In this document: positions 6,052-36,083 of the stretch, one piece after another
How positions within the stretch are numbered: the first letter of the stretch is position 1
Layout of the letters: every line of letters begins with the position of its first letter
NCBI RefSeq assembly: GCF_007833215.1
Contig: NZ_CP042239.1
Span: 496,001 to 560,000 of the forward strand
DNA from: Sphingomonas suaedae
GTDB taxonomy: Bacteria; Pseudomonadota; Alphaproteobacteria; Sphingomonadales; Sphingomonadaceae
DNA: 64,000 nt
Direction of reading: 5' to 3'
Made by a program: the position numbers and the translations under genes
The notes under the pieces: generated by a model
What the model saw: the letters and a program-made list of their open reading frames with translations, nothing else
Databases searched by the model: none
What the model was told of the DNA's origin: nothing

Positions 6052-6206
6052 GTACGAAATCCCGATCCCCACCGAAGTCTTTTTGCGTTAAGTTGCCAGT
6101 GGTTAGCCGGGTCAAGGACGATTCGCTCCGTTGAGACACGGTGCACATCGTTCGAGACACGACGTGGATTTGGATCGATATCCGCGCGCAGGGAGTTGAG
6201 TGTCGG

Positions 6207-7244
6207 ATGTCCGAGGAATCGGTTCTGCCGCGTTATCAGATCAGCAGCATCGCGACCGGCGGGGCGGTCGCACTCCAGCAATTCCGAGAGTCGACGCGCG
6301 ACATTTTCGACGTGATCCGCCCCGGTACAGCGGGCGATTATGCGATCGACATGCAGGCGGTGCACATGGGCAACCTGTTGCTCAGCGACCTGCGTTCCTC
6401 CGCCCAGGGTTTCCAGCGGTCGCGCGCGATGGTCGCCACGGCGGGCATCGATCACCTGATGGTCCAGCTCTACACCCATGGCGGCTTTGCCGGCCTGGCG
6501 GACACGATCGACGTGCGGGTGCGGGCGGGCGACGTCTGCATCTTCGACCTGACGCGCACGCTCGAGACGCGCGCGGGCGACTACGGCAACATCACGCTGG
6601 TGATCCCGCGGCCGCTGCTCGAGGACAAGGTCGCCGACATCGATTCGCTGCACGGGCTGGTGCTCGACCGCGACCTGCCGCTGACCCAGATCCTTGCCGC
6701 GCATATTCGTACGCTCGCGCAGCACGCCGCAGGACTTGCTGCAGGGGACGCAGCGATCGCGTCGCGCGGGACGATCCAGCTCCTCGCGTCGCTGGTCGAT
6801 CAGCGCCCGGGCAACAAGACACGCGCGACCGCGATGGCGACGCCGCTGCGTGAAGTGCTGCGCTACATTCACGGGAATCTGCACGATTCCGCGCTCGGTC
6901 CGACTCAGGTGGCGCAGGAATGTGGGGTGTCGCGCGCCACGCTCTACCGCATGTTCGAGCAATCGGGGGGCGTTGCGGAATTCATCCGCGAGCGGCGGCT
7001 GTCGGGGGCGGCAATGGATCTTGCCTCCCCAAGCGCGCATCCAAGGCGTATCTCTGACATCGCGCGAAGCTGGGGCTTTGCCGACGATAGTAGCTTCAGC
7101 CGTGCCTTTCGAAGCCATTTCGGGATTTCGCCGAGCGAAGCGCGAACCGCCTCCGCGCGCACCTGGGCGCGCGCGCAATGGGGCGGGTTATCCGACCAGG
7201 ACAGCTCCGCGATCGCCTATTGGATCCGGATGCTGCACGAGTGA
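6207..7244 (+). CDS. AraC-family transcriptional regulator
   Basis: The 345-residue protein has an N-terminal AraC_binding_2-like sensor region (about residues 10-190) and a C-terminal AraC/XylS domain with two helix-turn-helix motifs, VAQECGVSRATLYRMF and ISDIARSWGFADDSSF followed by the typical FGISPSEAR tail. The ATG at 6207 is preferred because a GGGAG lies 13-17 bases upstream. The frame is also open to an ATG at 6141. The gene is divergent from the giant repeat protein and precedes the enzyme/exporter operon, so it may control either one. The ligand is unknown. Confidence 0.9.
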   Translation: MSEESVLPRYQISSIATGGAVALQQFRESTRDIFDVIRPGTAGDYAIDMQAVHMGNLLLSDLRSSAQGFQRSRAMVATAGIDHLMVQLYTHGGFAGLADTIDVRVRAGDVCIFDLTRTLETRAGDYGNITLVIPRPLLEDKVADIDSLHGLVLDRDLPLTQILAAHIRTLAQHAAGLAAGDAAIASRGTIQLLASLVDQRPGNKTRATAMATPLREVLRYIHGNLHDSALGPTQVAQECGVSRATLYRMFEQSGGVAEFIRERRLSGAAMDLASPSAHPRRISDIARSWGFADDSSFSRAFRSHFGISPSEARTASARTWARAQWGGLSDQDSSAIAYWIRMLHE

Positions 7245-7313: not shown

Positions 7314-7493
7314 ATGCCTTTTCGCCAATGGCTTTCCCGGCTATGCGCGCCGCCTTGTTCGACCCTCGGTCGAAGCCTCGCGGAGCAATTCGCGAGGGCA
7401 GAGCACCACCTGGCCAAGGGAACGGGGATGGGGTCAGCCGCTGCAGGACCGATCTGCGCAACCGCGATTCGCGGCGCGAAGGTCGCGTCGTGA
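7314..7493 (+). CDS. Possible small ORF (59 codons) overlapping the asparagine-synthetase-like gene
   Basis: This ORF runs from ATG 7314 to TGA 7491-7493. It overlaps the GTG start of the next gene in a GTGA arrangement, the same close coupling as the downstream junctions. An internal ATG at 7428 with AAGGGA upstream would give a 21-residue peptide. The predicted product is Arg/Ala/Gly-rich with four Cys and resembles no family I know. It lacks a Gly followed seven to nine residues later by Asp/Glu in its C-terminal part, so it is not a normal lasso precursor. It could be a leader peptide, an unusual precursor or chance. Confidence 0.25.
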   Translation: MPFRQWLSRLCAPPCSTLGRSLAEQFARAEHHLAKGTGMGSAAAGPICATAIRGAKVAS

Positions 7494-9313
7494 CGGCGTT
7501 GGCGGCCGCAGCATTCGTGTGCGGTCCCGACGCGCCGGTGAAGCTATGCGAGCGCCTGCTTGCGCTCCAGCCAGTGGCGCGTGAGGTGCCGGCTTTCTTG
7601 TGGGATCGCGGCGCAGTCGCGCTCGGGCGGCGGCTGGCGGCGACGCTTCCGGAAGACGCATTCGATCGCGGTATTGCGCGGGGACGCGGTGGCGCGCTGG
7701 CGATGGCTGCGGATATCCGGCTCGACAATCGCGACGACCTTGCCGCTGCGCTCGGATGCGTCGATACGCTCGGCCGGCTTTCCGACGCCGCGCTCGCAAT
7801 GTCCGCGATTGAGCGCTGGGGCGTCGCGGCGATCGAAGGCTTTCTCGGCGATTTCGCGATCGTGCTGTGGGACGGTTCACACGACCGGCTGATCCTCGCC
7901 CGCGACGCGCTGGGCGCACGCCCGCTCCACTACCGGCGGACCGGCGGATGCGTGACGGTCGCCTCGACCGCGCAAGCGCTTGCATCGGCCGCAGGCGCAC
8001 GTGCCGACGGCATCGCGACCGTCCATTTCCTGTCGGGCATGGCGGTGCCGCACGGCGCCAGCTTCTTCGCTGGAATCGAGCGCGTGGAGCCAGGCGAGAT
8101 CGTGACCATCGGCGCCCATAGCTTGGACCGGTCAAGCTATTGGAACCCGGATCTTTCCCCCTCCCGGTTCGCATCGGGGGGCGATGCGGCCGAAGCGCTG
8201 GCCGCGCTGTTTGGCGAAAGCGTCCGTGCGCGCCTGCGCCGCACCGCAGCGGACGTCGCGACTCATCTCAGCGCGGGGCTGGACAGCGGCGCGGTGACGG
8301 CGACCGCGGCGCGACGGATCGGGGATGGTAGCGTACATGCCTTCACTGCGGCTCCGCCTGAAGGAATGCACGGCGCCGATGACGGGGTCGACGACGAAGG
8401 CCCCGACGCCGCGAAGCTCGCCGCGATGCATCCGCGAATCGTGCACCATCGCATCGCGTCGCCACGCCGATCGCCGGTCGATATGCTCGGCCCCGGCTTC
8501 GTGCTGTACGGGCGCCCGCTGACCAATCTCGCCAACCAGACCTGGCTTGCCGAAATAAACGATCGCATCCGCGCGCAGGGAGTGGACGTCCTGCTTGTCG
8601 GCGCGATGGGGAATCTGACGATCAGCCATTCAGGTAGCGAGGCGCTGGGCGAGCTGGTGCGCAGCGGGCGTATCGCGCGCGCGATTCGTCACGGCGCCGA
8701 ATTGCGTGCCGCAGGCAACAGCTGGCGCGCGGTAGCCGGCGCGGCGACGCGTCCGTTTCGCAATAGTCCGCCGCAAAAATGGGGCCCGCCGCTGCTCGCG
8801 CCCGGCGTCTCGCGACCCCAGGCCGACGCGGTGCTGGGATCCGTCGCGCGCCGCCTTGCAGTCGCGCGGCGGACGGATCCGGGCGATTTCGGCAAGGCGG
8901 TGCTCGCCGGGTGGGACATCGACATGCGCGACCCGACCGCCGACCGGCGGATCGTTGAATTCTGCCTGCGGCTTCCGGTCGAGCGATTCGCACCGGGCGG
9001 GGTGGCGCGGGGGCTCGCACGCACGGCGTTCGCCGATTGCCTGCCCGCGAGCACCATCGCTTCGCACCGGCGCGGCCGGCAGGCGGGCTGGTGGCATGTC
9101 GCGGCGCGCGAAAAGCTCGACCGCATACGCGACGAGATCGAGTGCATTGCCGCCTCCACCGACGCGTCGGCGATCGTCGATGTCGCAACCATGCGCGAGA
9201 TGGTCGCCACATGGCCCGGTCGCTGGTCCGACCCGCAGACCGAAGCGCGCTATCGTATGCGATTGCTGCCCGCGCTCGCCGCAGGGCATTTCGTGCGCCG
9301 GTGCGCCGCATGA
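7490..9313 (+). CDS. Asparagine synthetase-like (lasso-cyclase type) ATP-dependent amide-forming enzyme
   Basis: This protein of about 607 residues starts at GTG 7490, with GAAGG about 9 bases upstream. It has an N-terminal Ntn-amidotransferase-like half, including RLDNRDDLAAALG and a GDFAIVLWD segment, but no N-terminal catalytic Cys. The C-terminal synthetase half carries the PP-loop LSAGLDSGAV near residue 260. These features match asparagine synthetase homologues that activate a carboxylate as an acyl-adenylate, particularly lasso-peptide C proteins, which need no glutamine hydrolysis. It overlaps the kinase gene by ATGA at 9310-9313. A substrate cannot be read from the sequence. Family assignment is secure; a role in peptide modification is inference. 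Confidence 0.85.
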   Translation: MTALAAAAFVCGPDAPVKLCERLLALQPVAREVPAFLWDRGAVALGRRLAATLPEDAFDRGIARGRGGALAMAADIRLDNRDDLAAALGCVDTLGRLSDAALAMSAIERWGVAAIEGFLGDFAIVLWDGSHDRLILARDALGARPLHYRRTGGCVTVASTAQALASAAGARADGIATVHFLSGMAVPHGASFFAGIERVEPGEIVTIGAHSLDRSSYWNPDLSPSRFASGGDAAEALAALFGESVRARLRRTAADVATHLSAGLDSGAVTATAARRIGDGSVHAFTAAPPEGMHGADDGVDDEGPDAAKLAAMHPRIVHHRIASPRRSPVDMLGPGFVLYGRPLTNLANQTWLAEINDRIRAQGVDVLLVGAMGNLTISHSGSEALGELVRSGRIARAIRHGAELRAAGNSWRAVAGAATRPFRNSPPQKWGPPLLAPGVSRPQADAVLGSVARRLAVARRTDPGDFGKAVLAGWDIDMRDPTADRRIVEFCLRLPVERFAPGGVARGLARTAFADCLPASTIASHRRGRQAGWWHVAAREKLDRIRDEIECIAASTDASAIVDVATMREMVATWPGRWSDPQTEARYRMRLLPALAAGHFVRRCAA

Positions 9314-10176
9314 CGATGGCGCGCGCCTATGGCCTGACGATCGACAGCGCGATTCCGCTGCCCGGCCTGCCACAGGCGGCGGCCGGTAGCGTGGCCGATA
9401 TCGCGATCCGGCTCGGCGCGCCCGATACGGGAAAGGCGCATTCGGCCCTGACGCTCGATGTCACCGGGGTCGCGCGATTCGTCATCGCCGATGGCCGCGA
9501 GATCCGTGTCAGCCCGGATCCCGGCGCTGCGCCGCAGACGGTTCGGCTGTTCCTGATGGGGTCGGCAATGGGTGCCTTGCTGCAACAGCGCGGGCTGCTG
9601 GTTCTTCACGGCAATGCCATCCGGATCGGCGATTCCTGCATGGTCTGTATCGGTGCATCGGGAGCGGGAAAGTCGACACTCGCCGCTGGCTTTGCCCAGC
9701 GCGGCCATGCACCGCTGGCCGACGATGTCGTCGCGGTAACGCAGGACGGTTTGGCATTGCCCGGCTTGCCGCGCATCCGCTTGTGGCGCGACGCCGCTGT
9801 GCGACTGGGGCACGACATTGCAACGCTGGCGCGCGTGCGTCCCGAATTCGATAAGTTTGAACTCGCGGCCGCAACCGATCCGCATCCGCTGCCGATCCGC
9901 TGGATCCACGCGATCGAAGTCACGCCGGGCGCCGCTCTGTCCACGCGTCGGATCGATGGCGCGACGCGCATCCAGCTGCTCCGCAACCACAGCTATCGGC
10001 CGCAATTCATCGCGCGGACGATGGGCGAGGCGGCCCATTTCGCGCGCACGGCGGCGCTTGCCGCACAGGTCGCGATGTATCGCACGGTTCGTCCCGACGC
10101 GGGTGACACGCTGACGGCGATGATCGAGACGTTGCTTTCCACCGCAGATCAAGGGACAGGTTCGCGATGCGCGTGA
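9310..10176 (+). CDS. HprK-related serine kinase-like protein
   Basis: The 288-residue protein carries a Walker A P-loop, GASGAGKS, at about residues 115-122, followed by LADDVVAV with the acidic residues typical of the HPr kinase C-terminal fold. It lacks the long N-terminal domain of true HprK. HprK-like kinases of this size occur in some lasso-peptide clusters, where they phosphorylate the precursor C-terminus (paeninodin type). It starts by ATGA overlap with the synthetase and overlaps the ABC gene by 10 bases, so the three are co-translated. The phosphate acceptor here is unknown. Confidence 0.8.
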   Translation: MTMARAYGLTIDSAIPLPGLPQAAAGSVADIAIRLGAPDTGKAHSALTLDVTGVARFVIADGREIRVSPDPGAAPQTVRLFLMGSAMGALLQQRGLLVLHGNAIRIGDSCMVCIGASGAGKSTLAAGFAQRGHAPLADDVVAVTQDGLALPGLPRIRLWRDAAVRLGHDIATLARVRPEFDKFELAAATDPHPLPIRWIHAIEVTPGAALSTRRIDGATRIQLLRNHSYRPQFIARTMGEAAHFARTAALAAQVAMYRTVRPDAGDTLTAMIETLLSTADQGTGSRCA

Positions 10177-11876
10177 TCGAGGCTTCGGCGCTTCGCGCGG
10201 CATTGGGCGAATTGCGCCACGGCCTGATCGGTGTTGCCGGACTCAGCGCAGGGATCAACCTGCTGACGCTGACAGGTTCGATCTACATGCTCGTTGTGTA
10301 CGACAGGGTGTTGCCCGGGCGCAGCCTGCCAACGCTTATTTCGGTGTTCCTGATCGCCGCGATCGCGTTTGCGTTTCTGGGTGCGTTCGATGTGCTGCGC
10401 GCGCGGATGCTTGGCGATGTTGCCGCATCGCTCGACCGCGACCTGGGCGTGCGCGCGCAGGAAGCCGAGTTGCGGCTCGCGCTCGAAAAGCCGCAGCAGT
10501 TCGAGCAGGCCAGCCCGGTCCGCGACCTCGACCAGATTCGCGGCTTCATCGCCGGACCCGGGCCTGCTGCGATCATCGATTTGCCGTGGATCGTGGTGTT
10601 CATCGTCATCCTCGCGCTGGTGCATCCCTGGCTTGGCATCGTTACGTTCGTCGGCGGGCTTGTTGCCGCAGCGCTCGCATGGACCGCCGAGCGGGTCGGC
10701 CGCGGCCATGTCGCGGCGCTCGCGCAGGCGGCTTCACGACGCCGCGCCATAGGTGCGCGCCGGGTGCGCCATGCCGAACTTATTTCGGTTCTCGGGATGC
10801 GCGCGCCGACCCGGACGCAGTGGGAAACCGAACATCAGGCGATGCTGCACCAGCAGACGCAGCTGACCGCCAGCAGCACGATCCTTTCCGGCATCAGCCG
10901 CATTTTCCGCATGTTCCTGCAATCGGCGGTGCTGACTGTCGGCGCGATTCTGGTGATCGAGGGCAAGGCGACCGGCGGGGTGATCATCGCCAGCTCGATC
11001 CTGTCGGCGCGCGCGCTGGCGCCTGTCGATCAGGCGATCGCCAACTGGCGCGGCTTCGTCGCGATGCGCGAAAGCTGGGCGCAGCTTTCCAGGTCGATCG
11101 CACTTACGCCCGAAGCGGCGGTCGATCGCACCGCACTCCCCCCGCCACGCGCGACGCTCAGCGTCGAACGCGTGGCGCTCGTCCCGCCCGGATCGGACCG
11201 CGTGGTCGTCAACGATGCCGCGCTGCGTGCAAATGCCGGACAATTATTGGGAATTGTCGGTCCCAGCGGTTCGGGAAAATCCGCGCTCGTTCGCGCGATC
11301 GTGGGTGCGTGGCGGCCTGCGCGCGGCACCATCCGGCTCGACGGCGCCGCGCTCGATCAGTGGGACAGCGAGGCGCTCGGGCGGCATATCGGCTATCTTC
11401 CGCAATCGGTCGAGCTCTTCGCGGGAACGGTCGCTGCGAACATCGCGCGATTTCGCGAAGACGCGACGTCTGAGGGGATTGTCGCGGCTGCGCAGGCGGC
11501 GGGATCGCACGAACTGATCCTTCAGCTGCCGCAAGGGTATGAAACGCAGGTCGGCGAGGATGGGCGCAACCTGTCCGCCGGGCAGCGTCAGCGCATCGGA
11601 CTGGCCCGCGCGCTGTTCGGCGACCCGTTTCTGGTGGTCCTCGACGAACCCAATTCGAACCTCGACATGGAGGGGGACGCGGCGCTTGTCGAGGCGGTGA
11701 CGGCGGTGCGCGCGCGCGGCGGCATCGCGGTCGTCGTCGCGCATCGTGCCGCGATCCTGGATCAGGCCGATCTGCTGTTGGTGATGCGCAGCGGCGGAGT
11801 GCAGGCATTTGGTCCGCGCGCCGAAGTGATCGATCGCCTGCGTCCTGTCGCTCCGTTGCGCGAGCGTTCGGTATGA
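10167..11876 (+). CDS. Type I secretion system permease/ATPase (PrtD-like)
   Basis: The 569-residue fused ABC exporter has about six membrane segments in its first 300 residues. An ATPase domain follows with Walker A GPSGSGKS (about residue 365), Q-loop YLPQS, signature LSAGQRQR and Walker B FLVVLDEP. Its length and the lack of an N-terminal C39 peptidase place it with PrtD/AprD exporters of uncleaved substrates. The downstream HlyD protein is its natural partner, and an outer-membrane TolC partner is not in the window. Candidate cargo is either the giant repeat protein at 1-6051 or a product of the upstream modifying enzymes. Confidence 0.92.
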   Translation: MRVIEASALRAALGELRHGLIGVAGLSAGINLLTLTGSIYMLVVYDRVLPGRSLPTLISVFLIAAIAFAFLGAFDVLRARMLGDVAASLDRDLGVRAQEAELRLALEKPQQFEQASPVRDLDQIRGFIAGPGPAAIIDLPWIVVFIVILALVHPWLGIVTFVGGLVAAALAWTAERVGRGHVAALAQAASRRRAIGARRVRHAELISVLGMRAPTRTQWETEHQAMLHQQTQLTASSTILSGISRIFRMFLQSAVLTVGAILVIEGKATGGVIIASSILSARALAPVDQAIANWRGFVAMRESWAQLSRSIALTPEAAVDRTALPPPRATLSVERVALVPPGSDRVVVNDAALRANAGQLLGIVGPSGSGKSALVRAIVGAWRPARGTIRLDGAALDQWDSEALGRHIGYLPQSVELFAGTVAANIARFREDATSEGIVAAAQAAGSHELILQLPQGYETQVGEDGRNLSAGQRQRIGLARALFGDPFLVVLDEPNSNLDMEGDAALVEAVTAVRARGGIAVVVAHRAAILDQADLLLVMRSGGVQAFGPRAEVIDRLRPVAPLRERSV

Positions 11877-13171
11877 CGGCAGTATCGCCCGGCCCGCATC
11901 CGCGTGAGCAGCTCACGCGACGGGTGCGTCTCGCCGCGATCCTGCTGGGCGGCTTCGTCGTGTTGGTTTTGCTGATGAGCACGGTGCTGCGCGTCGAGGG
12001 CGCGGTGGTCGGTTCGGGCGAAGTGACCGTCGAATCGGGGGTGAAGGTGATCAGCCACGCCGGCGGCGGCGTGCTGGCAAAGGTATTGGTGCGCAACGGC
12101 GACCATGTTCGTGCCGGTCAGCCGCTTCTGCAGCTCGACACCGATGTCACCACGGTCGGATCGTCGAGTGCGGAAACGGGCTATCTCGAACTCGTGGCAC
12201 GCCGTGCGCGGCTCGGGGCGGAACGCGACGGCCGCTCCACGATCGCGTTCCCGCCGGTCCTGTCGAGCGAAGCAGGCGCCGCGTATCGCGCGCGCGAGCG
12301 ACGCAATTTCGAGCTTGGCCGCCGCGAGCGCGCGAGCAACCGCAAGCTGCTGGGCGAACGGATTGCGCAATATGAGCAGGAAATTGCGGGCTATCGCGCG
12401 CAGATCGATGCGATTGACGGCCAGATGAAACTGATCGGGCCCGAGCTCGAAGGTGTCCGCAAACTCTATGCCCAGAAACTGATCACCGTATCGCGGATGA
12501 ACGAACTGGAGCGGACTGCGGTCCAGCTGCAAGGCACGCGAGCGTCGCTGGAATCGCAGATCGCCAGGGCGCGCGCACATATTGCCGAGACGCAGGAGCA
12601 GATGGTGGCTATCGATGAGTCGCGCCGCACCGATGCTGCCGCCGAACTCGCGCAGATCGCGCCGCAGCTCAACGATCAGGAAGTTCGCCGTGCCAGCGCG
12701 CAGGATCAGCTGCACCGCTCGGTCATCCGCGCGCCCCAGAACGGGGTGATCGACAAGCTGGCCTATACGGCCATCGGCAGTGCCATTCCCGCCGGCCAGC
12801 CGATCCTTGAGCTGGTACCCGATCGCGATACGCTGATCGTCGAGGCGCATATCCGGCCGCAGGATGTCGATCAGCTGCGCATCGGCCAGTCGGCCCGAAT
12901 CAGCTTCTCCGGGCTGGATCTTCAGACCACGCCCGAGCTTCCGGGAACGGTGGCGTTCATATCCCCCGATCTGACCCGGGACAGCCAGACCGGCGCCAGC
13001 TTCTATCGCATCCGCGTCGCGCTGCGCGGCGATGCGCTCGATCGCAACCGCATCGCACTCAAGGCCGGCATGCCCGCGGAGATTTTTGTCGTCACCGGGA
13101 GCCGCTCGATTTTGTCCTATCTGCTCAAGCCGCTGGCAGATCAGGTTTCGCGTGCATTTCGCGAAGGATGA
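11873..13171 (+). CDS. HlyD-family type I secretion periplasmic adaptor
   Basis: The 432-residue membrane-fusion protein has one N-terminal membrane segment (about residues 20-40). A biotinyl-lipoyl half-domain follows (KVISHAGGGVLAKVLVRNGD), then a long coiled coil (about 110-270), then the second lipoyl half and beta-barrel with APQNGVIDKLAYTAIG. It overlaps the ABC gene by ATGA. It would bridge the inner-membrane ATPase to TolC. The ABC plus HlyD pair without a cognate substrate immediately downstream is normal for PrtDE-type modules. Confidence 0.92.
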   Translation: MTAVSPGPHPREQLTRRVRLAAILLGGFVVLVLLMSTVLRVEGAVVGSGEVTVESGVKVISHAGGGVLAKVLVRNGDHVRAGQPLLQLDTDVTTVGSSSAETGYLELVARRARLGAERDGRSTIAFPPVLSSEAGAAYRARERRNFELGRRERASNRKLLGERIAQYEQEIAGYRAQIDAIDGQMKLIGPELEGVRKLYAQKLITVSRMNELERTAVQLQGTRASLESQIARARAHIAETQEQMVAIDESRRTDAAAELAQIAPQLNDQEVRRASAQDQLHRSVIRAPQNGVIDKLAYTAIGSAIPAGQPILELVPDRDTLIVEAHIRPQDVDQLRIGQSARISFSGLDLQTTPELPGTVAFISPDLTRDSQTGASFYRIRVALRGDALDRNRIALKAGMPAEIFVVTGSRSILSYLLKPLADQVSRAFREG

Positions 13172-13673: not shown

Positions 13674-14186
13674 ATGCGCGGTTTGAAATTGGCGAAAGCT
13701 AGAGGCATGAGAGCATTCGATTGTTCGACCATTGGCTCGATCGCGCTTTTTCTCGGCGCGATTCCCGCAAACATCATTGTAATCGATCCTGCTCCTGCAC
13801 GGGCAGATGCGACCGTGGATTCGGATTCAAAAGAGGACGCTGAGTCCGCGGCGCTCAGTTTTGTCACGCGCTTTGAGGAAGGAGATCCGGGTGAAATCTA
13901 TGACGAGGAATTGAGCCCGAGCTTCAAAGCTCTTACTGCACGGCAGAACTTCGTGCAGCAGAGCGGATTCTTACGGTTGCAGAGTGGTGGGCGCGCTCTC
14001 GCACGAGAACTGATCGGGTCCCAACCTTTTACCCAGACGCCTACGGGGCAGGTTGGCACTTTTTATTACATTCGGTTTCGCACTCGGCATCCCAACGGGC
14101 TGGTATATCAAGACGTCTATCTTGAGCGAGTGGATTCCGCGTGGAAGATTGCTGGCTTTTATACCATCGCGGCGCCACAGCAATGA
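13674..14186 (+). CDS. Secreted DUF4019-like protein
   Basis: The 170-residue protein has an N-terminal hydrophobic leader ending near PARADA. An alternative ATG at 13707 shortens the leader. The rest resembles DUF4019: aromatic/acidic helices, then a beta-rich half with FYYIRFRTRHPNG and VYLERVDSAWKIAGFY. DUF4019 proteins are periplasmic and of unknown function. It overlaps the next gene by ATGA, so it starts a four-gene translationally coupled operon ending with a metallopeptidase-like gene. Base composition at its 5' end is less GC-rich than its neighbours. Confidence 0.7.
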   Translation: MRGLKLAKARGMRAFDCSTIGSIALFLGAIPANIIVIDPAPARADATVDSDSKEDAESAALSFVTRFEEGDPGEIYDEELSPSFKALTARQNFVQQSGFLRLQSGGRALARELIGSQPFTQTPTGQVGTFYYIRFRTRHPNGLVYQDVYLERVDSAWKIAGFYTIAAPQQ

Positions 14187-14821
14187 TACCGATGAGGGCT
14201 GCTGCGGCGACGTTGGCGCTTTTCTGTACGGTCACATTGATGCCGCAGGCGGGAGCGCAGGACGCCGCGCGGTCTTTCGGCCGATTACAAGATGCAATTG
14301 GCAAGTCGATGGCCGAACTTCCCGAGGATGAGCGCATAACGAAGATCTTTGAAGACGCGGTGGCGCTGCAGGCTGCATCGTCTCGATTGTCACCCGACGA
14401 TATCGGCGACTACGTGCGATCGCTGGACCATGATACCCAGCTGCTGGAGGCCGCGCTCGATTCGTCAGGGCCCGAACGAGACGCGATACTGGCGGACGTA
14501 GCTGAAGATCTCGAGATCAAGCGATCGGCTGGCAACGGCATGGGAGCCGGATCCAGTTTCCCCGGCCGTGTTTCAATTCGTGTGACCACGCGACGTGGTG
14601 TAGACGCCGTTCCCGGTTATGTTATCGGCCTTAATCCCATGCGCTGGCGAGGCCAGCAGCCGATGTTTCGATTGCCCATACTCAGCCCCGCGAGCGGCAG
14701 TGTCCCGCCCGGACGCTATGAAGTCATCGCACTGCGCGATGGGCGGCCGGTGGCGCGCGATATCGTACGCATCGGCCTCGCGGCCGAGGATACGATGGAA
14801 ATAGACCTGCCGGTACCATGA
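14183..14821 (+). CDS. Secreted hypothetical protein
   Basis: Start is the ATG overlapping the DUF4019 stop (14183), or ATG 14192 three codons later. A signal peptide with likely cleavage after AGA precedes QDAARSF. The mature part has a helical acidic half (about residues 30-130) and a beta-rich C-terminus with a GRYEVIALRDGRPVA hairpin resembling an Ig-like or carboxypeptidase-regulatory fold. I do not recognise a family. Tight coupling on both sides suggests it works in the envelope together with the membrane protein and peptidase that follow. Confidence 0.65.
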   Translation: MIPMRAAAATLALFCTVTLMPQAGAQDAARSFGRLQDAIGKSMAELPEDERITKIFEDAVALQAASSRLSPDDIGDYVRSLDHDTQLLEAALDSSGPERDAILADVAEDLEIKRSAGNGMGAGSSFPGRVSIRVTTRRGVDAVPGYVIGLNPMRWRGQQPMFRLPILSPASGSVPPGRYEVIALRDGRPVARDIVRIGLAAEDTMEIDLPVP

Positions 14822-15408
14822 CGGCGAGCGGGATGGATCTGACGCGCTTGCGCGCGACATGGACCGTGCTGCTGCAGGCCGCGACGTGGCTCGTGGCGCT
14901 CATCATGCTCTTCGTGCTGAAGCCTCCGCGTTTCACTCCTGCAGACGATGGCTTAATGTTTGTTCGGGCCGTTGAGTTCGTTGCGGCAATTGCGCTCGCG
15001 CTTGGCATGGTGGTCATTCACCGAAAGCGCCTGCGTCTGAAGACGCTCTGGACCGGTTGTGCTGTGGCGACGGTGGCGGCAGTGACCGCTCTGTTCGGCT
15101 ACGTCGCACTGGTCGCGCAATGGACGTGCGAATATGATGGACGCGGCCCTGTTGTCATTGGCAGCAAGATACTTGCCGAAGCGAAGCGCTATGCGGCCAC
15201 CCTATCCGATCCGGGATGCGAGGTTCTCATCCAGGACGCTGCGGGGGATACAGCCTCGGTCTGGCCGCAATATGAGATCGTGGCGCATCACCTGGCACTT
15301 ACCGGCTGCTTTATGGCGACCGTCCTACTTTTCGCGCTCGCCGCCCTGCTCGCCGTCGAGACCTTTCGCGCGGGAATGGGCGATGCAGAGGTTGGGGAAG
15401 GCGCATGA
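14818..15408 (+). CDS. Membrane protein of unknown function
   Basis: The 196-residue protein has four predicted membrane helices, at about residues 17-37, 48-66, 78-100 and 160-182. Between helices three and four lies a soluble loop of about 55 residues with two Cys (one in WTCEYDG, one in DPGCEVL), which could form a periplasmic disulfide. It is joined by ATGA overlaps to both neighbours. No family is recognised. Four helices with a Cys-containing loop would fit a membrane anchor or sensor for the coupled peptidase-like protein. Confidence 0.65.
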   Translation: MTASGMDLTRLRATWTVLLQAATWLVALIMLFVLKPPRFTPADDGLMFVRAVEFVAAIALALGMVVIHRKRLRLKTLWTGCAVATVAAVTALFGYVALVAQWTCEYDGRGPVVIGSKILAEAKRYAATLSDPGCEVLIQDAAGDTASVWPQYEIVAHHLALTGCFMATVLLFALAALLAVETFRAGMGDAEVGEGA

Positions 15409-16940
15409 ACTGGATGCGGACTGCGACAGCATTGATCGCATTGGCCCCGGTTGTTTCCTACGCAGTGCAAAAAGATACTCCCGCGGCCGAAAACGGACTG
15501 GCGGCGCGAGTCAGCGCCCACGCGCGCGCAGCGGCCGGGCGCTGGGGCGTCAATCCGACGGTCCGCATAGTGGAGGACGGCGCCAAACTTGAAGCGTTGG
15601 AGAACGGACGCATCGACGTGCCTATGGCAAAGCTCCGCGAACTGCTTTTGGGGATTCCCGACGTGCAGGCGGATGCTGTCATTGCTTGGCTGATGGCGCA
15701 CGAGGTCTGGCATCAAGTGCAGTTTCGTGATGGCTGGAAGCTGGTTGGCGCGAGCGATCGTGACAAGCGGCTCCGCGAATGCGCGGCAGACACCATGGGT
15801 GCCTACGCAGTGATGGACGCGAATCTGTCGACAAGGATCTCCACGCCCGACGAGCAGGCGATGCGCGAGCTTTCGGCGGCAATCTCTCAGATCATCGACG
15901 CGGCGGAGCGTCTTGAGACCGGAAATCTTGGCAGAGGCAATCACCCTGACGCCAATGCACGACGGGCCGCATTGCAAGCAGGCTTCGGGAGGGCCGTCCA
16001 GGAACGTGTGTACCAGCTGTCCAACGATCCCGGACGCGGGCTGCTCCGGGATCGCTTAGCCAAATTATATGATATCCGCGCGGGGGAAACGACCGGAGCT
16101 TGGTCGCTCCGGATGTGTGAATCTGTACTGCATTCAGGCAACGGCGTCGAAGATCTCGCAATCGGCACTCCGCAATTCAATTGGAACGAGTCGGGCGATC
16201 CACCGATCGTCGATTATCGAATCCCCTACCGCAATGTTGGGACCAACCCGATCAAGGTGACGATGCAAATCCGATCGGTCAGCGTGCCGCGACTAAGCCG
16301 CGAGGATCGCGGAAAATGGACTGTGGCTGATCTCAACAGCTACTCGTTCATTCTAAACGCCGATGCTAGCTATGACGTGGTCGGGCGGCTTCAATGGATT
16401 GCCACCGATGATGTGATGCCCAAATTGGTGTTCCCAAAGGCAGCGGAGAGCTATTTCGATGTTGTCCGGCTGGGTCCGGTCAATACCGGGGCGACCCCGA
16501 AACTGGTCAGCGCGCTTGGCCGGGAAGCAAGCGAACTCCAAGCAACCTTGTCCGCGTTATTCAATGCAGCTCCCGGCCGCTTCGGGGCAGTTTCGGCCAA
16601 TTGCGAGACCTATTCGAGCTTTCGAATGTGCGACCTCACGCTCGCGGTCGTCGGCGCTTCGAAGACACATGTCACCATCGACCAGGACGGCTCAAGTAAC
16701 GTTACGCTTGTTGTATATGGGGGCTCGTCCGAGATTGAGGCAGCCGCCGCCTACAGTCGTTTCCGAGGTTGGCTTCGTTCGATCTACCCTACGTTGGCCT
16801 TCGACGAGCGGTCGCGCCCGGAGGGGAGGGATGAGGTCAGTATGAAACCCGCTCCAACCGCAACCCTGACCCTATACAAGCGCAAGAAATCCTCCGGGGA
16901 TTTCGAAGTGATCGCGCTAATCAAGCCAGCCCTATTTTGA
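15405..16940 (+). CDS. Exported HEXXH zinc metallopeptidase-like protein
   Basis: The 511-residue protein has an N-terminal hydrophobic leader (residues 1-20). Residues 99-103 read HEVWH, a zinc HEXXH motif, followed by E125 in RLRECAADTMGAY, the ExxAD arrangement of the third ligand in gluzincins. The C-terminal two thirds (from about residue 230) look like beta-sandwich domains and match nothing I know. It closes the four-gene operon. Catalytic activity is likely from the motif but the substrate is unknown. The long unannotated C-terminus might bind the small secreted partners encoded upstream. Confidence 0.7.
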   Translation: MNWMRTATALIALAPVVSYAVQKDTPAAENGLAARVSAHARAAAGRWGVNPTVRIVEDGAKLEALENGRIDVPMAKLRELLLGIPDVQADAVIAWLMAHEVWHQVQFRDGWKLVGASDRDKRLRECAADTMGAYAVMDANLSTRISTPDEQAMRELSAAISQIIDAAERLETGNLGRGNHPDANARRAALQAGFGRAVQERVYQLSNDPGRGLLRDRLAKLYDIRAGETTGAWSLRMCESVLHSGNGVEDLAIGTPQFNWNESGDPPIVDYRIPYRNVGTNPIKVTMQIRSVSVPRLSREDRGKWTVADLNSYSFILNADASYDVVGRLQWIATDDVMPKLVFPKAAESYFDVVRLGPVNTGATPKLVSALGREASELQATLSALFNAAPGRFGAVSANCETYSSFRMCDLTLAVVGASKTHVTIDQDGSSNVTLVVYGGSSEIEAAAAYSRFRGWLRSIYPTLAFDERSRPEGRDEVSMKPAPTATLTLYKRKKSSGDFEVIALIKPALF

Positions 16941-28199: not shown

Positions 28200-30848
28200 T
28201 CAATGTCGGATCAGCGCCATGCGTCTTGCAAACTCGGCCTTGACCTGTGGCGACACTCTCGACGCCTGCACCAGCGCCACAAGACGTGCGCATTGCCGAT
28301 CGAATTCGGACACGAGCGCAGCCAGCCGCTCCGGATTATAGTCAATCAGTAGGCCCAGCTGCGCAGCCAGCGATAGGTCGTCGGGCAACGGCTCTGGCGG
28401 GGGCCAATGTTCCTTGAGCCAGGCAACCGCAGCCGCGGTCCGTGTCATCCGATAGCGCAACCCCGCGATCCGGGCGTCGGCATCGAAGTCAATCTTCACG
28501 GACAGTGGCGCTGCAGCGGGCAGGGATGGGACGACGACGCGTGCGGTCAAGCTGGCGCCGTCATAGTGCCAGTGGCCGCTGCGCTGACGATCGGATCTTG
28601 GGTACGTAACCCCGTTTACCGATACGTGCGTGGGCAGCGACGCCGCGGGAAACTCTGCAGTGATCTGTCGCGCGGTTGGCATATCAGGATAGCTGCCCTT
28701 GCGCGGGTGCACGGTCAGCGTCGCGCTGCGGGCATCGCGTGCGCTGCTGATCGGGGTGAAGCTGAACGCGTTGCCGCGATACCCTTCGTCATTTCCGGCA
28801 TCTTCATAGACCTGCGTCCTTGCCGCGCCTCCCGGGATCACCTGCAGCACCAGTGCGCTCCCGTCGATCTGCTGCAGGTTCTTCGTGGCGTGAGGGTTCA
28901 TCGGAATGACCGCGCCGGCCCGCACGAACAACGGAATTTCGTTCAGCAGATAGTCGCGCGAGATCGTGCGGTCGCCCGCGACGAGCTCTCCGCGGTTCGT
29001 ATCGTACCACTGCCCCGGCGGCAGCCAGATCGATGTCTGAACGACACCGTCGCTTCCGGCTTTGGTCACCGGCGCAAGCAGCATGTCGTCGCCGAACATA
29101 TATTGTCCGCGCGCGGTATAGGCTTCCTCCCGATCTGGCCACGCATAGTAGAGCGGACGCATGATCGAGACGCCGCTATCATAGGCCTGTCGCGACGCCG
29201 TGTAGATATAGGGCGCAAGCCGATAGCGTAGTGCCACCGTGTCGCGCAGGATGCTCTGAACCTCGGGTGAGAAGCGCCACGGCTCTTTGCGCAGATTGCC
29301 GTCCTTGGCCGAATGGGTGCGAAGGATCGGGCTGAACGCGCCGAACTGCATCCAGCGGACATAGAGTTCGGGGTCCAGCTTGCGTTGATCGGCGGGGATG
29401 CCGTCGGCGAACATATGGCCGCCGATGTCGTGGCTCCAATAGCCGTAAAGCACGTTCGAGGCCGTGGCGGTGAAATAGGGCTGATAGGCGAGCGAGTCCC
29501 AGTTGATGACGGAATCGCCTGAAAAACCGATCTGGTAGCGGTGATTTCCGAGCCCGCCCCAGCGGTGATAGATCAGCGCGCGATTGGCCTTGGTCTGCTG
29601 CATCCGCGTATAGAACAGGTGGTTGAGCCACCAGGTGTTGGACAGGCCGGGCATCAGCTTCGATTCCGGCCATTGCTGCCAGTCGAGCCACCAGAAATCG
29701 ACGCCCTGCGCGGTCAGCGGGTCGAGCGTCAGCCTGAACCAATTGTCTACGAAGCGGCGGTCGGCCCCCTCGAACGGCACGGCCTTGCCATCGGTCACGC
29801 CCATCGCCCTGGCGAAGGCGGCATAGCTGTCCTCGCGCGGGGGGATGCCCGACGCGGGGTGCAGGTTCAGCGTCGCCTTGATCTTGCGGTCCTCGAGCCA
29901 GCCAAGGAAGCGCTTCGGATCGGGGAACAGGCTGCGGTTCCAGCTATAGCCGGTCCAGCCCACGCCTTCGCCGACCTCGTCCTTCACGACATAGCGGGGG
30001 TCCCAGCTGAGCTCGTCGGTGCGATGCCAGTCCATGTCGATGACCAGCACGTCGAGCGGGAAGCCGGAGCGATCGAGGTCGCCGACGAGGTCGCGCAGCT
30101 CGCGGTCGGAATAGTTCCAGTAGCGCGACCACCAATAGCCAAAGGCGAAGCGTGGCGGCATCGGCTGGCGGCCGGCGACCTTGGCGTAATCGCCGAGCGC
30201 TTGGGTATAGTCGTGGCCATAGCCAAAGAAATACAGGTCCTGGCAGTCGCCGCAGGCGCGCTTCTGCACCCAGGGGCTCGGGCGGCTGTCGTCGAACACG
30301 AACGAGCTGCTGTCATCGACGACGTGCCAGCCATCGCGCGAGAGCAGGCCCTGGCCGAGATCGAGCCGGGTGCCGTTGTCGATCTGTCGGTCCCCCGAAT
30401 AGCGATCGAGCGTTCGCGCCGTGCCATGGAGGTTGCCGGTCTCTGGCATACCGGGCCGCCAGGTGAACGCGGGCTTCAACGTGCGTGAGCGTATGCTGAG
30501 GTTGGCGGCGGTAAAGCGGCCGCTGTCGAGCGTGTAGCTGAGTTCGAGCGCGTCGGTGCGGATCACCAGCCTGCCGTTCTCGACTGTGCTGGTGAAACGG
30601 GGGACGGGCTGGTCGCGATCGATGAATATCTGGGACGGCGCATCGACGAAGCGGGCGGCGGGCGACCATTCCATGCGGATCAGCCCGGACGTCAGCACCG
30701 TGAAGCGCGCCTGCCCGCGGGTGACGGTCGCGGCAGCGGCGGTGCGGCCCTCCATTTCGGCGGACTTGGCCATCGCGACGGGTGTCGTCAGCGCCAGTGC
30801 CACGGCACTCAGGCCGTACGCGACACATGCTTTTCCTCTGCTCAACAT
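28200..30848 (-). CDS. Exported glycoside hydrolase family 31 alpha-glycosidase
   Basis: The 882-residue protein has a signal peptide (cleavage near AMA). The GH31 (beta/alpha)8 barrel shows the nucleophile Asp in FWWLDWQQWP and the acid/base Asp in IGFSGDSVINW, with MDWH and HDIGGH near the substrate site. N- and C-terminal beta domains are present, and a helical tail of about 80 residues (LKEHWPPPEPLPDD onward) extends past the usual GH31 end. Family members cleave alpha-glucosides, alpha-xylosides or alpha-galactosides. The galactose genes around it favour an alpha-galactosidic or mixed substrate. It lies 30 bases after the mutarotase gene in the same operon. Confidence 0.92.
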   Translation of the reverse strand: MLSRGKACVAYGLSAVALALTTPVAMAKSAEMEGRTAAAATVTRGQARFTVLTSGLIRMEWSPAARFVDAPSQIFIDRDQPVPRFTSTVENGRLVIRTDALELSYTLDSGRFTAANLSIRSRTLKPAFTWRPGMPETGNLHGTARTLDRYSGDRQIDNGTRLDLGQGLLSRDGWHVVDDSSSFVFDDSRPSPWVQKRACGDCQDLYFFGYGHDYTQALGDYAKVAGRQPMPPRFAFGYWWSRYWNYSDRELRDLVGDLDRSGFPLDVLVIDMDWHRTDELSWDPRYVVKDEVGEGVGWTGYSWNRSLFPDPKRFLGWLEDRKIKATLNLHPASGIPPREDSYAAFARAMGVTDGKAVPFEGADRRFVDNWFRLTLDPLTAQGVDFWWLDWQQWPESKLMPGLSNTWWLNHLFYTRMQQTKANRALIYHRWGGLGNHRYQIGFSGDSVINWDSLAYQPYFTATASNVLYGYWSHDIGGHMFADGIPADQRKLDPELYVRWMQFGAFSPILRTHSAKDGNLRKEPWRFSPEVQSILRDTVALRYRLAPYIYTASRQAYDSGVSIMRPLYYAWPDREEAYTARGQYMFGDDMLLAPVTKAGSDGVVQTSIWLPPGQWYDTNRGELVAGDRTISRDYLLNEIPLFVRAGAVIPMNPHATKNLQQIDGSALVLQVIPGGAARTQVYEDAGNDEGYRGNAFSFTPISSARDARSATLTVHPRKGSYPDMPTARQITAEFPAASLPTHVSVNGVTYPRSDRQRSGHWHYDGASLTARVVVPSLPAAAPLSVKIDFDADARIAGLRYRMTRTAAAVAWLKEHWPPPEPLPDDLSLAAQLGLLIDYNPERLAALVSEFDRQCARLVALVQASRVSPQVKAEFARRMALIRH

Positions 30849-30878
30849 CCTCTCTTGCGATCCCTTTGCTTGATAGTG

Positions 30879-31952
30879 TCAGGCGGACTCGACGCCGAAC
30901 CGCCATGCGATCCGGTTGCGATAAATCTGCCCTGGCTCTAGCCGAACCGAGCCGAATTCCGGGCGGTTGACGGTGTCGGGAAACTGCTGGGGTTCGAGCA
31001 CGATGGCGTCGCCCATGCGATACATCCGCCTGTCCTTTCCGACCGAACTCCCGTCGAGGAAATTGCCCGAATAGAATTGCAGCCCCGGCTGGGTGGAATG
31101 GACCTCCATCACCCGCCCGGAGACGGGGTCGACAACGTGCGCCATCAGCCGCAGATGATCGGCGATATCGCGCGCGACGATCCAATTATGGTCATAGCCG
31201 CGACCGATACGCAGCTGGGGTTCGCGCGCGTCGCGCACCCGCGTAACGATCGGCATCGGGGCGCGGAAATCGAATGCGCTGCCCGCTACCGGTCGCACTT
31301 CGCCCGTCGGGATCGCGCTATCGTCGGTCGCCAGATACGCGTCGGCTGGGATGGTCAGGACATGGTCGAGCGCGCTTCTTCCGCTGCCCTCGCCGGCCAA
31401 ATTCCAGTACACATGGTTGGATAATGCGACCGCCGTGACCGCGTCGGCGACCGCGCGATAGTCCACATGGAGCGTGTTCGCGGCGTCGAGCGCGTAGCGC
31501 GCGGTGACGGTGAGCGTGCCGGGATAGCCCTGATCGCCGTCGGGGCTGACATGGCCGAGCGTGACCGACGCTTCGTCCGCGTTATCGAGCGCGAGGATGC
31601 TCCAGTTTGCCTTGTCGAACCCGCAATCTCCGCCATGAAGCGAATTGGGGCCGTTATTGATCGGCACGCGATATTCGGTGCCGTCGAGCAGAAAGCGCCC
31701 GCCAGCGACGCGGTTGGCAATCCGTCCGACCGTCGATCCCATATATTGCGGCTGATCGATATATTCCGCCAGCGTTGCATGGCCGAGCGCAACGTCGCCA
31801 AGGCGTCCTTCGCGGTCCGGCACGCGCATCGCGTGGATCGATGCACCATAGGTGAGGATCGAGGCTTCGACCGTGCCGTTGCCCAGCCGGATCAGCTCGA
31901 CCGGCGCTCCGTTCAGCGTGCCGAAATCGGCGCGGTCCACAGTGAAATTCAT
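30879..31952 (-). CDS. galM: Aldose 1-epimerase (galactose mutarotase)
   Basis: The 357-residue protein has the GalM beta-sandwich with catalytic His in SNHVYWNLAG and catalytic Glu in VLEPQQFPDTVN; NSLHGG and GYDHNW are also family marks. It interconverts alpha and beta anomers of galactose, feeding galactose dehydrogenase. A GGGAG site lies 6 bases before the ATG. It heads the galM-GH31 operon and shares a promoter region with the divergent GH43 gene, which contains an ATTTAT-N3-ATAAAA dyad. Confidence 0.93.
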   Translation of the reverse strand: MNFTVDRADFGTLNGAPVELIRLGNGTVEASILTYGASIHAMRVPDREGRLGDVALGHATLAEYIDQPQYMGSTVGRIANRVAGGRFLLDGTEYRVPINNGPNSLHGGDCGFDKANWSILALDNADEASVTLGHVSPDGDQGYPGTLTVTARYALDAANTLHVDYRAVADAVTAVALSNHVYWNLAGEGSGRSALDHVLTIPADAYLATDDSAIPTGEVRPVAGSAFDFRAPMPIVTRVRDAREPQLRIGRGYDHNWIVARDIADHLRLMAHVVDPVSGRVMEVHSTQPGLQFYSGNFLDGSSVGKDRRMYRMGDAIVLEPQQFPDTVNRPEFGSVRLEPGQIYRNRIAWRFGVESA

Positions 31953-33119: not shown

Positions 33120-34499
33120 TCAGCCCGCCCGCAGCCGCGCGAGCAGTTGCGGGTAGGGGGGCACCCGGTCTGCCGCCTCAGTGAGGCGCGTCGCGAGGGC
33201 GGCGATTGCGTGCGAAACGCGCTCCAGATCGACCGATTCACTCAGCGGATCGACGCCGTGCGGGGTCACGCCAAGGCCCAGCAGCGATGCGATCCACGCA
33301 TCCGTTTCGAACGGTTCGGCCTCGGACGGCGGAAGGCGGCCCCGGCGCGCGAACTGTTCGAGCGTGCGCGCGAGTCCGTCGGGCAACGGGCGTTGCCCCG
33401 ATCGCAGATGATAAAGCGCGTGCAGGTCGCGCATCCGCGCACGCGTCGCGTGACTGCGGCGGTTATACTCGGCGATCTCGACCCGCGCGAAGTCGCGACC
33501 GGGCAACAGCTCAAGCGCCAGCAGGATTGCGTCCTGCGCGAGGTGGAGCGCGGTGCCGAACAGCGGATCGATCGCCGTCGCCGAATCGCCGATCGCCAGG
33601 ACATTGGCCGTCCACGGCGTGCGGCACCCGAAGCGGACCGCAACGCCGCCTTCGTCCTCGCCCAGCGCGATCACGCGCGTGTGGTCCGCCAGCGCCGAGT
33701 GCCAGCGCCAGCCGCCCGCGACCCGCTCGGCCCGGTCGAGCGGGTCGATCGCGCCGCCTGTGACGTCGCATGTCGCCATTGTCCGGCCGGGCAGCCAGTC
33801 GGCCCATGACTCGAACGCACGGTCTTCGGGGTGTCGCAGCACCGCCTGCGACCCCGAACAATCGAGATAGAGATCGGCGGTGACGCGACCCCCATCGGCC
33901 GTCGTCACCGCGGCGATCGCGCCACCGTCGCCATGCTCGGCCGCGGCAAAGGGCGCGTGCCGCACCAGCGGGGCCGTGAGCGCAGCGAGCCGCGCGCGAT
34001 AGCGGGGCGGATCGATGCGCAGCGCATAGAGAAAGCCGCCCAGTGGCGATGCCGGATCCCGGCTGGGGTGAGTGAACTTCCCCGCTGCGCCCAGCACCGC
34101 GGCCGCGCTGTAGTGCCAGAACGGCGCGGCCTCCGCCGCCCGGGAAGCACGATGCCACAAGCTATGAAACGGGACGGTACCGGCCTTCAGCCCATGCTCG
34201 CCGAACCCGTGCACCCAGTTGTCGCCGGCACGGGCCCAGTCGACGAAGCGCGTGCCGAGCAGGTGCGTAGCGATGCCCGCGCGCACCAGCTCCTGCTCGT
34301 CGAGCCCGATCGCGGCGTGAAAGCGATGGATGCTCGGCCAGGTCGCGCACTGAAGTTCGGCAACGGCGGCAGGATCGGGCTCGGCGGGGACTATGGTCAC
34401 CGTGACGTTCGGCAACGCCCGCGCGAATGCCGCCGCCGCGGACAGGCCGACGATTCCGTCGCCGACGACGCAGATGCTGCGGATCGCGCGTCCGGTCAT
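33120..34499 (-). CDS. Degenerate tryptophan-halogenase-like flavoprotein
   Basis: This 459-residue protein aligns end to end with the neighbouring halogenase but has lost the catalytic residues. The Lys of the ATYKLGIEF segment is Leu (L80 in IATHLLGTRF), the Glu of EPLEST is Phe (DPLFGT), and WxWxIP reads WRWHSA. The FAD motif is GDGIVG. It therefore probably does not halogenate. It may be a flavin oxidoreductase, a regulatory subunit of the active partner, or an enzyme repurposed in the TonB-receptor locus. It overlaps the upstream gene by ATGA. Confidence 0.8.
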   Translation of the reverse strand: MTGRAIRSICVVGDGIVGLSAAAAFARALPNVTVTIVPAEPDPAAVAELQCATWPSIHRFHAAIGLDEQELVRAGIATHLLGTRFVDWARAGDNWVHGFGEHGLKAGTVPFHSLWHRASRAAEAAPFWHYSAAAVLGAAGKFTHPSRDPASPLGGFLYALRIDPPRYRARLAALTAPLVRHAPFAAAEHGDGGAIAAVTTADGGRVTADLYLDCSGSQAVLRHPEDRAFESWADWLPGRTMATCDVTGGAIDPLDRAERVAGGWRWHSALADHTRVIALGEDEGGVAVRFGCRTPWTANVLAIGDSATAIDPLFGTALHLAQDAILLALELLPGRDFARVEIAEYNRRSHATRARMRDLHALYHLRSGQRPLPDGLARTLEQFARRGRLPPSEAEPFETDAWIASLLGLGVTPHGVDPLSESVDLERVSHAIAALATRLTEAADRVPPYPQLLARLRAG

Positions 34500-36013: not shown

Positions 36014-36083
36014 GCCATAATCCTCAAACGACAGGAGCCGAAGAGCAAGGCTCTCCGGCTCCCATGTTGACCCGACCGCCCGG

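Follow-up and report, generated by a model that had tools for sequence, protein, structure and literature searches.

A lasso-type synthetase and an HprK-like kinase in one operon with a type I secretion exporter in Sphingomonas suaedae: a probable phosphorylated-lasso pathway coupled to an RTX protein

RESULTS

Genes at the locus

The DNA analysed here, called the window below, is a stretch of 64,000 nucleotides of the Sphingomonas suaedae genome (G000:C1:496001-560000; genome size 4.15 Mb, one contig). It contains an operon in which a lasso-type synthetase (C) and an HprK-like kinase (K) are encoded together with a PrtD/HlyD-type exporter. Genomes are designated by G numbers, G000 being that of S. 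suaedae, and fetched loci by L numbers. The operon and the genes to its left are the following (window positions unless a contig is named):

7490..9313, plus strand: C, lasso-type AsnB-like macrolactam synthetase; GTG start, PF00733 and PF13537
9310..10176, plus strand: K, HprK-like precursor kinase; weak PF07475 match, 30.3 bits (cut-off 33.3)
10167..11876, plus strand: PrtD-type type I secretion permease/ATPase, 569 residues; TIGR01842, 641 bits (cut-off 510)
11873..13171, plus strand: HlyD-type periplasmic adaptor, 432 residues; TIGR01843, 338 bits (cut-off 209)
6141..7244, plus strand: AraC/FeaR-like transcriptional regulator; HTH_18 and AraC_binding_2, FeaR model 129 of 199 bits
1..6072, minus strand: N-terminal 2024 of the 3135 residues of an RTX/cadherin/FG-GAP giant protein running past the left window edge; full frame G000:C1:492665-502072
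G000:C1:492484-492645, minus strand: lasso-like precursor of 53 residues, outside the window, 3.4 kb left of its edge

A sequence-only reading of this DNA had described four genes overlapping by 4-10 bases. The overlaps were found to be 4, 10 and 4 nt (C/K, K/PrtD and PrtD/HlyD), with the K start codon lying within the C stop codon (ATGA), and the family assignments hold. The AraC/FeaR-like gene immediately upstream, on the same strand, is a candidate regulator of the operon.

The ATP motif S-x-G-x-D-S, invariant across eight aligned C proteins, is intact in the window C. With the lasso-cyclase model NF033535 the window C reached only 197 of 525 bits; this cut-off is not decisive, because the C of a paeninodin-like cluster of the same genome reached only 272. 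In the alignment of K the His, the Walker-A GxxGxGKST and the Asp-Asp residues are all retained. The same residues are listed for lasso kinases in a passage of PMC10368454, where they are reported to be important in BsfK.

The giant is transcribed divergently from the operon. It has cadherin-like and FG-GAP domains, with RTX repeats (PF00353) and a serralysin-type PF08548 domain at its C terminus, and is the only PF08548 match in the genome (E up to 0.001). PrtD-type pumps export proteins with a C-terminal domain of the serralysin type and, judged from its family, the giant would be the natural and obvious substrate of the PrtD/HlyD exporter. As to the outer membrane channel, a Pfam scan of 28 open reading frames (ORFs) of the window gave no OEP-family match; the search did not extend to a TolC-like protein encoded elsewhere.

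A lasso-like precursor behind the giant RTX gene

A recurrent W-x-x-P-x-[L/V] motif combined with a C-terminal Ser was first seen in small reading frames of loci encoding relatives of C. A regular expression for the precursor matched 39 times in 1,026 kb of lasso-related loci and 4 times in the reversed sequence. Small ORFs at about 13.2-13.6 kb of the window were considered as precursors and rejected, as they do not fit this pattern.

The precursor of the S. suaedae locus starts with an ATG 19 nt past the stop codon of the giant, on the same strand, and AAAAGG precedes the ATG. Its leader contains W..P.L, its core could form a ring of 8 residues, and its last two residues are GS. The predicted core is SIDPFVEDGAFSMGS, with Ser1 and Asp8, the spacing being taken from paeninodin-like precursors of the same loci. 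When this precursor was left out and the model built from 12 relatives, it was still recovered, with a genome-scaled E of 2.1e-6, and no other match in the 84-kb stretch tested was below E 7; when 120 public relatives were added to the model, the E value was 4.4e-5. In the alignment with the 12 relatives W and P are present in 13/13 sequences, the acidic-Gly-x-Phe element and the final Ser in most. The curated NCBIfam models, including the paeninodin family, did not match this precursor at E up to 1, and on the precursors they gave one sub-threshold paeninodin match, in a different cluster (L047).

Precursors of this family follow RTX genes

A seven-row precursor model was run on 298 family and 151 genus genomes, and a 13-row model on 376 order and 367 class genomes; the samples overlap and were drawn evenly, not being complete sets. 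Since only part of the first-look candidates was scored per genome (e.g. 22/101 in G000), the precursor counts are lower bounds. Strong matches (E about 1e-10 or better) were found in at least 16 distinct places in 11 genomes, and the class-wide search yielded none of this strength beyond the family.

Thirteen of the 16 strong precursors come immediately after a co-oriented RTX gene, with gaps of 8-87 nt, which are uncertain by some nucleotides because ORF starts were guessed (gene labels are from BLAST to a reference set). They belong to G000, G204 (three), G268, G309 (two), G357, G381, G395, G403 and G663 (two); the two RTX genes of G663 are cut by contig ends. The G309 and G395 rows of the seven-row model had been found by looking behind giants that leave the fetched stretch. 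Eight of the 16 did not serve as rows of the model by which they were detected and are not identical to any such row (five from the family and genus searches, three from the order search), and seven of these eight are behind an RTX gene. A weaker match in G403 (E 0.004) also follows an RTX gene, at a gap of 9 nt.

The RTX partners are of differing make-up. Cadherin-like or FG-GAP domains occur in those of G000, G268 and G381, in one of G204 and in one of G403; another G204 partner has RTX and PF08548 only, and the partners in G309 and G357 gave weak metallopeptidase matches below the cut-off. In G204 there are three RTX units, each ending in a precursor copy. HlyD and PrtD genes were within the fetched stretch in 5/11 precursor genomes (that of the window, G204, G309, G375 and G395), several stretches being limited by contig ends.

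Conservation of the precursor family

A search of 5.8 billion public proteins returned 164 relatives at E 0.01 or better, of which the best 120 were examined. Those listed are named hypothetical or uncharacterized protein and come from Sphingomonas, with one from Croceibacterium. Among the best 120 of 164, whose conservation is biased toward the query model, the W and the C-terminal Ser are present in 120/120, Glu at leader position -2 in 118/120, Gly at core position 1 in 114/120, and Asp or Glu at core position 7 or 8 in all. The core is nearly fixed as GTRxxxDGxFxTS, or as a 15-residue form ending in [DE]GxFxxGS. PadeK phosphorylates a C-terminal Ser (a passage of PMC9266682), and the acidic residue at 7 or 8 together with the C-terminal Ser would fit a macrolactam of 7 or 8 residues whose Ser is phosphorylated by a kinase of the PadeK kind.

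In G835, a genome from a different family of this class, three precursor-like frames lie in tandem (L218:6873-8146); they have W..P.L-type motifs and end in Ser. No C was detected in this 16-kb stretch.

C loci and C phylogeny

Forty-five C loci were compared; they are best-scoring rather than random loci, together with three plasmid records and loci of the S. suaedae genome and of G158, and their stretch lengths differ. The reference-set search detected K in 37, B1 in 32, B2 in 18 and an RTX gene in eight of the 45, and the precursors are of one family. A lasso precursor together with B protein in relatives, which the sequence-only reading had set as a refuting finding, is present and counts against the idea of a non-lasso pathway. 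Strong HlyD/PrtD matches were present in three of the 45 loci (the window, L039 and L089). A contig search with C in the genomes gave one distant locus. Plasmid carriage was considered and rejected: one precursor was without a match, and the relatives of C and K were below 60% identity.

A quick tree built from 46 C proteins places the window C among lasso-type C proteins and pairs it with the C of G205 (Shimodaira-Hasegawa-like approximate likelihood ratio test, SH-aLRT, 100), a sister relation less sure than this value because the G205 branch is long. Neither of the two has B1 or B2 in the fetched neighbourhood. They are also the shortest in one C segment, with 109 (window) and 106 (G205) residues. 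Both anchors of this segment were found in 26 of 47 C proteins; it has 133-143 residues in 19 of these 26 and 117-126 in three others, and two are probably mis-anchored.

In a second clade, made up of the five C proteins of G204, G357, G395, G332 and G309, the C gene is accompanied by K, B1 and B2. An RTX gene is in the stretch at four of these five loci, the G332 giant being cut by a contig end, and in G357 the RTX-precursor pair is about 110 kb off on the same contig. The G204 precursor core is GTRATGDGAFTTS.

As a separate observation, the G205 locus L043 (G205:C1:2512000-2529000) has a C, a consensus precursor and an RTX giant, with K, B1 and B2 not detected nearby; K and B1 are encoded elsewhere in this genome.

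B1, B2 and other lasso clusters

The S. suaedae genome has three B1 (PF05402; at 0.670, 1.595 and 3.762 Mb) and three B2-type (PF13471) genes, none within 100 kb of the operon; the nearest B1 match is 110 kb and the nearest B2-family match about 158 kb past the right edge of the window. An orphan B2 at 3.625 Mb passes NF033537 and shares 40% identity with the B2 of a kinase-type cluster. Its own 15-kb stretch gave neither a C nor a K match, and no B1 match is near. Three other kinase-type clusters of the same genome, at 0.665, 1.595 and 3.76 Mb, are also without a B2 next door, and the orphan B2 may serve all kinase-type clusters of this genome. Because of these three clusters, and because B2 was found in only 18 of the 45 C loci, B2 acting in trans is plausible.

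In G205, G403 and G663, B1 is 86 kb or more from the RTX-type precursors, and K genes whose surroundings of 18-19 kb gave no C match occur in G205, G403 and G387. Taken with the unlinked B1 and B2 of S. suaedae, these distances make a dispersed pathway plausible.

The cluster at 1.595 Mb (L036:6816-10635, G000:C1:1594815-1598634) encodes B1-K-C and two paeninodin-like precursors with the likely cores AGGPGLTDSGVLS and AGGPGVTDGGIFS. C, K, B1 and a precursor are present in each of the clusters at 0.665 Mb (L107) and 3.76 Mb (L113).

Other genes in the window

Downstream of HlyD, on the plus strand, the run 13674-16940 encodes a DUF4019 protein and a 511-residue protein with an HEVWH (HExxH-like) motif, besides two proteins whose family is unknown; DUF4019 is the sole Pfam match in this run. 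A tryptophan-halogenase-family protein is encoded at 34496-36169 (minus strand), with GH31 and aldose-epimerase genes close by (28200-31952).

DISCUSSION

On balance we think it probable that the locus houses a phosphorylated-lasso pathway, of a variant paeninodin kind, and that this pathway is tied genetically to the type I secretion of an RTX protein. The gene arrangement is best explained by a locus in two parts: the giant and the precursor on the minus strand, and the regulator with the C-K-PrtD-HlyD operon on the plus strand. In such a pathway K would phosphorylate the C-terminal Ser of the precursor, as inferred from PadeK and its relatives; a B1 encoded elsewhere in the genome would present the W..P.L leader, the orphan B2 would cut the leader off, and C would close the 8-residue ring between Ser1 and Asp8 of SIDPFVEDGAFSMGS. 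PrtD and HlyD, completed by a TolC-like protein from elsewhere, would export the RTX giant by means of its C-terminal signal, as is expected from their families. The peptide would be produced together with the giant and might encounter it at the export channel or extracellularly, as the gene pairing would suggest. The sequence-only reading had proposed a polypeptide amidated or cyclised, and phosphorylated, before type I export. Its modification remains probable, the physical tie to the exporter stands, and a tie to RTX or type I secretion system (T1SS) genes is seen again in some of the related loci. As to export, the giant is the better substrate of the exporter, though the peptide, too, might pass through PrtD/HlyD.

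Several observations weigh against this interpretation. Three of the 16 strong precursors have no RTX gene ahead: that of G205 adjoins C, with an RTX gene 3 kb off, that of G375 adjoins HlyD, PrtD and an outer membrane factor (OMF) gene, and the third of G663 is behind a gene read from its sequence as a uracil-DNA glycosylase. Conversely, 18 of 19 further PF08548 regions in eight of these genomes have no precursor behind, the exception being the weaker G403 match; one more region in G395 has none either, and three short-contig regions of G381 are outside this count. The pairing of RTX genes with precursors is thus specific, not general. RTX or T1SS genes are present in only 9 of the 45 C-locus stretches. 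The order C-K-PrtD-HlyD, which the sequence-only reading had proposed to look for in other sphingomonads, was not observed at any of the other 44 C loci, several being truncated at contig ends, and a conserved four-gene order was rejected. A single origin of the RTX-linked C proteins was rejected as well, for they do not form one clade in the quick tree. The window C is about 26-28 residues short in a segment of typically 135-137. The precursor deviates from its family in having Arg at -2, where 118/120 relatives have Glu and where Thr would be expected of a lasso leader, and Ser instead of Gly at core 1. Neither PqqD (B1) nor Transglut_core3 (B2) was detected within the window. The B pair had indeed been reported missing by the sequence-only reading together with a precursor, but the precursor is encoded 3.4 kb past the left edge, and B1 and B2 elsewhere in the genome. 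Finally, lasso topology is not deducible from sequence.

Some of these points would also be expected of a decaying remnant, in which B1 and B2 have been lost, C and the precursor are drifting and no mature peptide is made here though relatives make one. B1 and B2 are not local, C is shortened and the residues at -2 and core 1 of the precursor are atypical. Yet the precursor and the four genes all have open reading frames, the junctions overlap and the catalytic motifs are complete. Moreover, the G205 sister of the window C is just as short and has no B1 or B2 in its stretch, but adjoins a consensus precursor, and supply of B2 in trans is plausible (see above); decay therefore seems to us clearly improbable.

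The lasso genes and the exporter could also be coincident neighbours, PrtD/HlyD serving the giant only, the lasso genes being independent and the pairing of RTX genes with precursors reflecting shared regulation without joint export or contact. The serralysin-type C-terminal domain of the giant, of the class exported by PrtD-type pumps, would agree with this, and a further ABC gene stands beside the lasso genes in L084, L087 and L091, among others. According to a passage of PMC11006600, lasso peptides can reach the outside without a dedicated D transporter. Taking into account, however, that C overlaps K by 4 nt and K overlaps PrtD by 10 nt in one operon, that 13/16 strong precursors follow RTX genes and that each of the three RTX units of G204 has its precursor copy, we regard mere coincidence as rather unlikely. 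Least probable by far is that the giant itself is the substrate of C and K, through amidation, isopeptide bonds or phosphorylation, as the sequence-only proposal could be understood in a wide sense. It shares the locus with enzymes whose superfamily forms amide bonds, but the leader motif for a lasso B1 is in the small peptide, which is found behind RTX genes of differing make-up, and inspection of eight giant frames by eye showed no common precursor-like N- or C-terminus. Amidation of the giant had been considered as the main idea and was rejected, because no leader-like motif was seen by eye at the ends of the giants.

The proposed coupled pathway can be compared with several known systems. 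Serralysins and RTX adhesins are secreted by exporters of the same PrtD/HlyD families and likewise have a neighbouring RTX substrate with a C-terminal domain; here, in contrast, a lasso-type precursor follows the substrate gene and lasso enzymes are encoded in the exporter operon. In serralysin operons (apr/prt-inh) a small inhibitor gene stands beside the protease gene, so that there too a small gene adjoins the gene of the T1SS substrate, but the small gene found here is like the precursor of a ribosomally synthesized and post-translationally modified peptide (RiPP), and several of the RTX partners show no protease domain. With the paeninodin-type pathway (PadeA/K/B1/B2/C) and with SyanK of Sphingobium yanoikuyae the locus shares the HprK-like kinase, the AsnB-like C, the W/YxxPxL leader and the C-terminal Ser as phosphorylation site; it differs in that the family has Glu, not Thr, at -2, PrtD and HlyD are in the C-K operon, the precursor is behind an RTX gene and B1 and B2 are unlinked. 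The Bradymonas bsf lasso cluster, as described in passages of PMC10368454, is similar in the kinase residues, in B1-dependent phosphorylation and in a residue other than Thr at -2 (Ile in bsf), and Ile or Val at this position is reported there also for Sphingomonadales. In contrast, BsfA has its phosphorylation site at Ser3 and Asp as its last residue, and an RTX/T1SS link does not appear in those passages.

Among the full-text matches listed by the literature search, no title or abstract opening describes a pairing of lasso genes with RTX or T1SS genes, most subscription papers being outside its coverage. In the T1SS review PMC8277102 the lasso-related passage concerns microcins. The Sphingomonas BPH lasso paper (PMC11006600) describes a benenodin-type cluster and nowhere uses the word kinase. 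The purpose of lasso-peptide phosphorylation is still open according to a passage of PMC9266682.

The core hardly varies, and copies recur behind different RTX genes within one genome, three of them in G204; both points would speak for a partner role rather than for a fast-evolving antibiotic. We therefore suggest, tentatively and as a possibility that may well be wrong, that the phosphorylated lasso peptide of sphingomonads is a dedicated partner of T1SS RTX proteins. It would be made alongside those proteins and leave the cell with them or by their channel, serving to cap, retain or inhibit them or to bind calcium on them. The 164 unannotated protein clusters are candidate lasso precursors. 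The nearly fixed core, the C-terminal Ser in 120/120 (best 120 of 164) and the RTX/T1SS placement offer a concrete, testable partner for a phosphorylated lasso peptide, and raise the question whether type I secretion may use a RiPP as a cofactor. If true, the partner role would assign lasso peptides a housekeeping function and not one in warfare or as antibiotics.

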